43,339 nt of DNA, taken from contig MFBZ01000005.1 of the NCBI GenBank assembly GCA_001776545.1, forward strand, positions 1 through 43,339, read 5' to 3'. A program made the position numbers and the translations under genes. The notes below the pieces were generated by a model. That model saw nothing but the letters and a program-made list of their open reading frames with translations, had not been told where the DNA came from and did no database searches. Position 1 is the first letter of the stretch. Each line of letters starts with the position of its first letter. The stretch comes from Candidatus Curtissbacteria bacterium RIFCSPLOWO2_12_FULL_41_16. GTDB lineage: Bacteria; Patescibacteriota; Microgenomatia; Curtissbacterales; GWA2-41-24. Shown here in pieces: positions 3,168 through 41,811 of the stretch.

Positions 3168-3709
3168 CCAAACGAGTCTTCGTATTTTTGTTTGCCCTTT
3201 TGGCAGTCAGTTTACTGGTTTTGCCGGTAATTACCACTTTTGATCATTTTTTAACGCGCGTTCTTAATTCATTCGGCGGGATAAGGATAGTTCAGGAGGT
3301 GATTGTGCCCCATGAGGCCAAAATAATTGCGGTTATTTTGAAGCCATTTGGTTTTAGGGTGGCGCCGACTCCAACGGGTATCTATGTTAATGATGTTTTG
3401 GTAACTATCTGGTGGTCTTGTATCGGCTGGCAATCGGCACTTTTAATAATTCTTTCCTTGTTTGTGGGCTTATCGCGTGATTTTCCGTTTTCATCTAAAG
3501 TTGAGACTGTGATTTTGGCAATTTTGGGATTTTTCTTTTTAACGGTTTTTAGATTAACTTCTGTGGCTGTGGTTGGCGCAAATTTTGGCACCATGGTTGC
3601 CCTTTTATACCATGACTACTTTGCGGCAACACTTTTGACTTTTGTATTTTTATTTGGCTTCTGGTGGTTTAGTTATACGTTCGTGTTGGAGGAGAAACAT
3701 GCCGATTAA
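3164..3709 (+). CDS. Exosortase/archaeosortase-family transpeptidase
   Basis: Multi-TM protein with candidate catalytic Cys (WWSCIGWQS), Arg (FRLTSV) and His (YHDYF); overlaps the upstream ORF with a PEP-CTERM-like tail by 4 bp. Confidence 0.82.
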   Translation: MTKRVFVFLFALLAVSLLVLPVITTFDHFLTRVLNSFGGIRIVQEVIVPHEAKIIAVILKPFGFRVAPTPTGIYVNDVLVTIWWSCIGWQSALLIILSLFVGLSRDFPFSSKVETVILAILGFFFLTVFRLTSVAVVGANFGTMVALLYHDYFAATLLTFVFLFGFWWFSYTFVLEEKHAD

Positions 3710-4702: not shown

Positions 4703-4990
4703 TCAAACTGCATTGGTTGGCAGTCACTGGTTTTATTTGGGTTGACAGTTTTTACAGGCTTTGGCGGGAAATTTACCAAAATCAGTCTTTTGCAGACTTT
4801 TATGATTGGCGTTTTGGGAACATTTTTAATGAACGTTTTAAGGATTACGGTTGTTGCCTTGATTGCCTTTTTTGCCGGGAGACTGCCGGCGGTGATATTT
4901 CATGACTACTTTTCGGTTGTGGTGACAATTGGCTGGTTGTTTTTCTTCTGGTGGTTTAGTTATGCGTTCGTGCTGGAGGAGAGGTCGTAA
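4703..4990 (+). pseudogene. C-terminal part of a second exosortase copy (lacks its N-terminal half)
   Basis: NCIGWQS...MNVLRIT...FHDYFSVVVTIGWLFFFWWFSYAFVLEERS keeps the Cys/Arg/His motifs and the C-terminal signature of the 3164-3709 protein. Confidence 0.75.
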
Positions 4991-5923: not shown

Positions 5924-6031
5924 CACGATTATGACTCATTTTTGGCTGTAATTGGCTGGCTGTTTTTCTTTTGGGGGTTCAGTTATGCGTTCGTACTGGA
6001 GGACAAAACTGCTGATGGGCGCCGATTTTAG
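5924..6031 (+). pseudogene. C-terminal remnant of a third exosortase copy
   Basis: HDYDSFLAVIGWLFFFWGFSYAFVLED matches the last ~27 residues of the other two copies. Confidence 0.72.
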
Positions 6032-6059: not shown

Positions 6060-7769
6060 TTGTTCATGTTCCCTTCACAAACCTCTCTTATTCCCATAAC
6101 AGTAGCGTTGGCGAAATTTACAGCAGCAAATGGGTTTGGAGGACTTTATCCATACTGGTATTTAGGCTCAACGCCGGTGAAGTATTTGACAGGTCCGGTG
6201 GTGCCGGGGGTTTTGGTAGGACTGCATCAGCTACTCCCAAATTTTTCTCTGTTTGATCTTTCTTATTTTGTGATTCTTACTTCATATTTCATAAGTGCGA
6301 TCGGTTGGGGGATTTTATCGGGAAGGTTATCAGGCAGTAGGATGGTGGGATGGTGGGTTGGCGGGTTGACATTTATCTTACCCTGGCATTGGGTTGCGGG
6401 ACTTGGTTTGGAGGAAGTTTCGGCGGTTTTGGCGAGTGCTTTAACACCGTGGGTGCTATGGGTATTCGCTCGGGGTCCTGTCAGCAGTTTCCTTCCCGCT
6501 TTTGGCGAGGCTCGCCTTCGGCGGCCCGCCAGTGCTCGCAAGACTTTTGTTGACGTTGGTATTGTTAAAATAGTTACCGTTATTAAGAAAAAGTTCTTGC
6601 TGCGCGCTGTCGGTAACCCTTCCACTGCTGCCACCCCTTGCGAAATTACTCAGCAAGTTTCGTCATATTTTTCTGTGTGGCTACCCTCGCTTGCGTTCGC
6701 ACTGTTGTTACTCTCTAATACTACCGCCTCGATTCCGGCGATTGTAGGACTTCTAATAATTTCAAATTTCAAATTGGTCTCGTTTTCTGGCGAAAAGCAA
6801 ATTTCAAATTTAAAGAAAGCAGCTATTGTGATAATGCTTGGTTGGCTGCTTTCTTTATTGTGGTATGGGCCTAATTACTGGTCGACAAGTTTTGGCGCAG
6901 CGTCGATTGGGGGCAAGAGCGCAGTGAGTGCATTTGTTAACTTGATTAACCAAACGCGCGGGTTTGTTCCGGTAATTTTGGCGCTGGTTTTGGTTGTTTG
7001 GGGGTTTAGACCAAAGACTCTATATGATAAATTTATTTTGGCTTGGTTGACTATTTTTGGCAGCCTGACGCTTTTTCGGTTTTTGGCCGACCCTGATTTT
7101 TGGATGGACTGGACAGCCTGGATAGGGGAGGTCGAGGTAGGACTCGCCATGGTTATGGGGAGAAATTTTCAATTTAAAATTGAGACTTCATTTAGAATTG
7201 CAAATTTCAAATTAAAAATTACAAGGCTTACTATTTTCTATCTACTATTTGCTATTTACTTTCTGGCCGGTTGGATGGTGGCTTTTCAAAACCGCAATTT
7301 TTGGCTGCCAAGAGCGAGTATTGAGAATACTGTTGAGTATAAGATTGCTAAGTGGTTGGAGCTAGGAACGGGTCCTGTCAGTCGTTTCCCTCCCGCTTTT
7401 GGCGAGGCTCGCCTTCGGCGGCCCGCGATTGCCACCCGTTCTGTTGGTGCACCTACGGTTTTCTTATCTGGGACGACTGCTTTCTGGTTAAATAGTTTGG
7501 TAGACGTTAGGCAGGTTAGGGGCGGGAGAGATGAGGTTTCGGTTAATGGAGATTGGAGAGATGCCGCTTGGGAGATAAGAGAAGGCGCAACAGGTGAGGG
7601 CACTGAAAGAGCGCTGAGGACACTGAATATTTCCTATGTGGTAGTTCATACAAAAGACTCTGGCGAGTTTTATCATGATTTCCTTTATCCTCAAAAGTTT
7701 GAGAATATCAGTTCACTTACCAAGATATACGAGAAAGACGGGGATGTGATTTATCAAGTCGGAGACTAA
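6060..7769 (+). CDS. Polytopic membrane protein, probably glycan-associated, with two in-frame palindromic inserts
   Basis: Many hydrophobic segments; soluble C-terminus; two near-identical PAFGEARLRRPA segments. Confidence 0.65.
   Translation: MFMFPSQTSLIPITVALAKFTAANGFGGLYPYWYLGSTPVKYLTGPVVPGVLVGLHQLLPNFSLFDLSYFVILTSYFISAIGWGILSGRLSGSRMVGWWVGGLTFILPWHWVAGLGLEEVSAVLASALTPWVLWVFARGPVSSFLPAFGEARLRRPASARKTFVDVGIVKIVTVIKKKFLLRAVGNPSTAATPCEITQQVSSYFSVWLPSLAFALLLLSNTTASIPAIVGLLIISNFKLVSFSGEKQISNLKKAAIVIMLGWLLSLLWYGPNYWSTSFGAASIGGKSAVSAFVNLINQTRGFVPVILALVLVVWGFRPKTLYDKFILAWLTIFGSLTLFRFLADPDFWMDWTAWIGEVEVGLAMVMGRNFQFKIETSFRIANFKLKITRLTIFYLLFAIYFLAGWMVAFQNRNFWLPRASIENTVEYKIAKWLELGTGPVSRFPPAFGEARLRRPAIATRSVGAPTVFLSGTTAFWLNSLVDVRQVRGGRDEVSVNGDWRDAAWEIREGATGEGTERALRTLNISYVVVHTKDSGEFYHDFLYPQKFENISSLTKIYEKDGDVIYQVGD
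6474..6529. repeat. 56-bp GC-rich palindromic insert, copy 1
   Basis: ggtcctgtcagcagtttccttcccgcttttggcgaggctcgccttcggcggcccgc; 53/56 identical to 7371-7426. Confidence 0.88.
7371..7426. repeat. 56-bp GC-rich palindromic insert, copy 2
   Basis: ggtcctgtcagtcgtttccctcccgcttttggcgaggctcgccttcggcggcccgc. Confidence 0.88.
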
Positions 7770-41452: not shown

Positions 41453-41476
41453 CGCCCGCCTTTGGCGAGGCGGGGC
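41453..41476 (+). repeat. GC-rich palindromic hairpin in 23S related to the 6474/7371 inserts
   Basis: cccgcctttggcgaggcgggg; CCCGC[T/C]TTTGGCGAGGC is shared with the two protein-coding copies. Confidence 0.6.
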
Positions 41477-41811
41477 CCCCGGAGGGGTAGAGCTCTGGAT
41501 GGTTTGTGCAGAGCAATCCGTGCAAACCAATCAAACTACGAATACTCTTGGGGATGAAGGTAAGAGTCAGTCCGACCCGGATAAGCGGGCCAGGGCTAAA
41601 GGGAAACAACCCAGATCCAAAGCTAAGGTCCCTAAGTGTGTCTTAAGTGTTAAAGGTAGTGTCCGCGCTTAGACAGCAAGGAGGTTGGCTTAGAGGCAGC
41701 CATCCTTTAAAGAAAGCGTAACAGCTCACTTGTCGATTCCCGTCCATTGGACGGGAGGGTGCGGGTGCGCCGACAATGTAACGGGGCTAAAAGATACCAC
41801 CGAAGCTTGGG

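Follow-up and report, generated by a model that had tools for sequence, protein, structure and literature searches.

The Rickettsia palindromic elements (RPEs) are hairpins of about 105-150 bp that form in-frame fusions in protein genes (Ogata et al. 2000; reviews PMC2229807 and PMC10969869). We analyzed a window of 43,339 nucleotides from Candidatus Curtissbacteria bacterium RIFCSPLOWO2_12_FULL_41_16 and found that two repeats in it are pieces of a hairpin-shaped, probably mobile DNA element of about 90-165 bases. Like an RPE, this element is a dispersed hairpin of roughly 100-150 bp, fused in frame into conserved protein genes, and neither has a known mobilizer. Unlike RPEs, it resides in another bacterial group, where it is present through a class, it is used in both orientations and several frames, and it features conserved internal loops, copy-specific complementary arms and nested secondary hairpins. 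The first-pass annotation had compared a 56-bp repeat to RPEs. The dispersed copies, their in-frame location in ORFs and the clean empty sites bear this out, but the unit is a hairpin of about 90-165 nt rather than 56 bp, and its copies were found in the window's own class and sporadically in its phylum. By analogy, the element would work as RPEs do while probably constituting a separate family, set apart by its features and host group.

Palindromic repeats with coding potential are reportedly found inside ORFs of the archaeon Methanocaldococcus jannaschii as well. PMC2229807 cites Suyama et al. 2005 on these palindromic coding repeats. Bacterial MITEs (PMC10969869) are likewise short, non-autonomous, dispersed and palindromic, and the element has the terminal inverted repeats of a MITE (GGGT/ACCC plus the arms). 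Its flanks are inverted rather than direct repeats, and it differs from MITEs in its site-specific complementary arms. No direct target duplication was noticed at the copies, in comparisons made above the strain level. We found no earlier description of the element in this bacterial group in a literature search that reached few subscription papers. The kind of element is already known from RPEs, from which this one differs by having site-specific arms, nested inserts and a covarying structure and by extending through a class and sporadically a phylum. Our preferred reading, to which we assign a probability of roughly 0.8, is a dispersed, non-autonomous selfish hairpin element that is read through as a tolerated peptide.

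Within the window, the repeats at 6474-6529 and 7371-7426 have 3 mismatches in 56 positions, a spacing of 897 bp (299 codons) and a shared frame, that of one ORF (Table 1), reproducing the near-identical pair first described in its identity (53/56), spacing and shared frame. One 25-nt stretch of the repeat has two exact occurrences in the window, whereas 100 shuffles contained none with up to 3 mismatches allowed. The 56-bp extent was too small, however. In copy 1 the repeated unit runs on to 6636 and the complementary arms to 6644, and both repeats cover no more than the 5′ portion of a larger unit. The host protein has no Pfam match. Because its ORF is open and shares 54-62% identity, over the matched stretches, with orthologues in genomes G001, G006 and G007, it does not look like a pseudogene, a possibility that had been raised against the initial interpretation. 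Upstream of this gene, the 3′ end of a membrane-protein gene is repeated in three decaying copies, at 3636-3695, 4923-4982 and 5946-6005, and glycine-rich GGN repeats occupy three blocks at 2244-2734.

Table 1. Positions in the window of the two element copies, their parts and the gene that holds them.
Feature	Position	Strand	Remarks
Host ORF	6060..7769	+	569 aa hydrophobic protein, unknown family, holds both copies
Element copy 1 with arms, complete	6464..6644	+	covariance-model match, E 6.4e-16
Left flanking arm, copy 1 (ttcgctcg)	6465..6472	+	pairs with cttgcgaa save two positions
Core of copy 1, GGGT...ACCC, 164 nt	6473..6636	+	
Stem P2 left strand (CAGCAG), copy 1	6482..6487	+	covarying stem; partner CTGCTG at 6625-6630
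Nested 30-bp hairpin insert, copy 1	6500..6529	+	missing from C10:32407 and C25:18336
Stem P2 right strand (CTGCTG), copy 1	6625..6630	+	
Right flanking arm, copy 1 (cttgcgaa)	6637..6644	+	
Element copy 2 with arms	7361..7445	+	covariance-model match, E 2.2e-7
Core of copy 2, 68 nt	7370..7437	+	
Nested 30-bp hairpin insert, copy 2	7397..7426	+	

The full unit reads GGGT-CCTGT-CAGNNG-TTTCCYT-CCCG-Y-CAGTGCTCG on its 5′ side and, after a variable loop, CTGCGCGCTG-T-CGGGA-(A)CCCTTCCA-CNNCTG-CC-ACCC on its 3′ side. These two sides pair to form one long imperfect rod with stems P1-P4 and conserved internal loops. Complete copies have cores of 89-164 nt, in keeping with the palindromic hairpin of about 100-150 bp that typifies RPEs, and copy 2 of the window is without the distal part between GCCCGC and GATTGCCACCC. 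Among the first eight copies, 30 stem cells had changed on both sides, compared to 10.8 in shuffles. In 59 copies drawn from further families in the class, covariation scored 0.493, where shuffles gave 0.145 and slid controls no more than 0.13; the alignment was fitted to the model and so leans towards the structure. Mismatches in stem P2 are rare, with G.T and A.C at similar frequencies (3:3 and 15:12). Because the two are about equally rare there, the recognized form of the element is probably a DNA hairpin rather than an RNA.

In most copies of the window's genome, CCCGC is followed by TTTTGGCGAGGCTCGCCTTCGGCGGCCCGC, a segment of 30 bp (10 codons) that keeps the frame and is absent from two copies, on contigs C10 and C25 (Table 1). 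Since the 30-bp GGCGAGGCTCGCC palindrome is lacking in some copies, we regard it as a secondary insert nested within the element. The palindromes originally noted in the repeat are therefore real, but GGCGAGGCTCGCC is a separate, later arrival and not part of the unit. Another type of nesting is seen in TopA of G008 (L182), where one element interrupts stem P2 of a second: GGGTCCTGTCAGTTT[GGGTCC...CCACCC]AAACTGCCACCC. A CCCGCCTTTGGCGAGGCGGG palindrome resembling the nested hairpin is also found at 41455-41490, in apparent 23S rRNA sequence.

To count copies in this genome (995 kb in 30 contigs, searched whole), in its family and in its class, we used a covariance model, R1. It detected 11 dispersed copies in the genome (E <= 0.1), supplying the genomic count that the first-pass annotation had called for, and the whole-genome search placed further copies, several of them near-identical, on contigs C15, C19 and C10. 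Fifteen of the 19 genomes of the window's order, all belonging to one family, have 1-19 copies each under the same model. In the class, 75 of 382 sampled genomes contain copies (E <= 0.001), and in the phylum a second model, R2, found them in 18 of 381 sampled genomes (E <= 1e-5), 8 of which lie outside the class. The phages and plasmids searched contained no copies, and Rfam gave no match to the element; its gathering score was reached only by unrelated tRNAs.

The element resembles REP/RAYT systems, which are hairpin repeats in genomes with Y1 transposases, both in its hairpin form and in its genomic company, as 17 of the 19 family genomes have Y1_Tnp genes. A REP-type identity, with movement by a Y1 (RAYT) transposase, is nevertheless improbable. 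The element is longer than REPs and genic, the ten Y1 loci scanned contain 0 copies, and the hairpin family near Y1 genes is a different one. Nor do Y1 genes follow copy number: no Y1 match accompanies the 19 copies of G008, and G018 has none of the element despite eight Y1 matches. That second family (CCTCCGAGGTGGGTTCTGACTCCTCGGAGGTGG; 14 exact occurrences of CCTCGGAGGTGG in the window's genome) sits 0.2-1.3 kb from Y1_Tnp genes in a REP/RAYT-like arrangement, at C19:19322, C20:16843, C2:32514 and other sites. No parent transposase was found for the element of the window, and two DNA queries of its genome revealed no orphan half-elements.

In the window's family, 58 of the 76 N-free copies lie inside long ORFs, meaning ORFs of 150 aa or more that extend 20 aa or more to either side of the copy; 39 of these copies are in ORFs sense to the element and 19 in antisense ones. 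Stops occur in the unused frames of 43-82% of genic copies, the used frame being open by definition. Running against a selfish in-gene reading, only 18 of 58 copies from other families are in long ORFs. At the DNA level, the copies are fused in frame into conserved protein genes, as in RPEs. Searches confirmed Obg (three inserts), FolC, transketolase, SufC, CarA and TopA as hosts, and sequence motifs alone point to PriA, LeuRS, RadA, CarB, CysRS, a UvrD-like helicase and ComEC-like proteins. Relative to solved homologues, the inserts in FolC, transketolase and Obg occupy loop positions. An AlphaFold prediction for CarA was of low quality (mean pLDDT 58.6), and its insert region (<50) says little. 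Judged by sequence, the element has repeatedly inserted in frame into what would be protein loops, many of them in essential proteins. Other small in-frame inserts (LPAGRQ, YPERSRR, PPRLARSSGEA) recur in the host proteins of loci L094, L109, L067, L093 and L165, which suggests that several hairpin families may lie inside coding genes.

Tolerance in essential genes could also be explained if the element were a small intron removed after transcription, or were bypassed by the ribosome, and its conserved structure with pairing flanks and its presence in core enzymes would fit such a scheme. We consider this quite unlikely. Frame use, the two orientations and the loop positions all make removal at the RNA level doubtful: the used frame of gene copies is open and length-compatible, 19 of the 58 genic copies are antisense to the element, and the sites are turns or variable loops. 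Rfam also yielded no intron match. A function is another possible meaning of the conserved structure, and covarying stems and conserved loops would suit a regulatory or structural RNA repeated by happenstance. Such an RNA is very unlikely, however, for an element that turns up in unrelated genes on either strand, varies in copy number, is sporadic in presence, has no Rfam match and shows no clear preference for G.U over A.C in its inner stems.

The selfish hairpin reading is supported by the empty sites in orthologues. As the first-pass annotation had anticipated, aligned homologues of the window gene, CarA and TopA show clean in-frame insertion opposite empty sites. The window gene has an empty site 1 in G001 and G016; its site 2 is likewise empty in G001, whereas G007 has an apparent decayed TGPVSR remnant there. 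The CarA loop between DPF and LDGL contains the element in G006, G007, G008 and G012 and is short in eight other genomes; in the window's own genome, it holds an unrelated longer sequence. In TopA, four genomes (G005, G006, G008 and G009) have the element at one strand-turn-strand position, and G011 and G018 have a short turn at this place. On a gene tree with several weak nodes, the CarA-loop inserts are polyphyletic (present in G006 and not in its sister G005, present in G012 and not in G013), indicating that the same loops repeatedly gained, or repeatedly lost, inserts.

Outside the core, each copy has its own complementary flanks over about 8-10 positions, forming copy-specific arms that measure about 5-11 bp where a copy is well preserved. 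In the arms, G.T is somewhat more frequent than A.C (17:7 and 40:19). Genome G227 has two copies with identical 89-nt cores and different perfect 11-bp arms, showing that the arms belong to the site, whether pre-existing or made at insertion. Chance palindromes with a spacer of at most 4 and perfect arms of at least 8 bp number about 20-25 per 100 kb, and those with perfect arms of at least 11 bp about 2.5-5 per 100 kb. Palindromes of arm size are thus too frequent for chance alone to argue against pre-existing targets; in empty CarA genes, conserved target palindromes were not above background. Read from alignments, the net insertion minus the core is about -2 nt at two Obg sites, about +1 in FolC and in TopA of G006, and about +16 in CarA of G012. 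This length evidence points both ways on whether palindromes are targets or products of insertion. A rule by which the host-native arm is always at the 3′ side of the element seemed to fit TopA of G006, CarA of G012 and FolC; we dropped it because it failed for copy 1 of the window.

Under the selfish hairpin reading, a non-autonomous element would be moved by some other factor and inserted at a short palindrome, or would create one. Insertions would survive where an in-frame, stop-free segment of about 12-57 codons lands in a tolerant loop, the segment would be translated as a tolerated peptide, and small hairpins would nest inside the element later. A more tentative extension, which we hold to be possible but on the doubtful side, is that of a phylum-wide hairpin whose insertion itself makes the inverted arms, for example if a folded end primes copying of adjacent host sequence, and for which coding sequence is the ordinary habitat in streamlined genomes.

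The many copies with different arms, and the relatives in which sites are empty, put the mechanism of insertion within reach of a test. Our results suggest that essential proteins in these bacteria, among them Obg, CarA, TopA, FolC and transketolase, carry foreign peptides in their loops. They also suggest that selfish DNA inside coding genes is not a peculiarity of Rickettsia but also endures in another large group of bacteria with small genomes.
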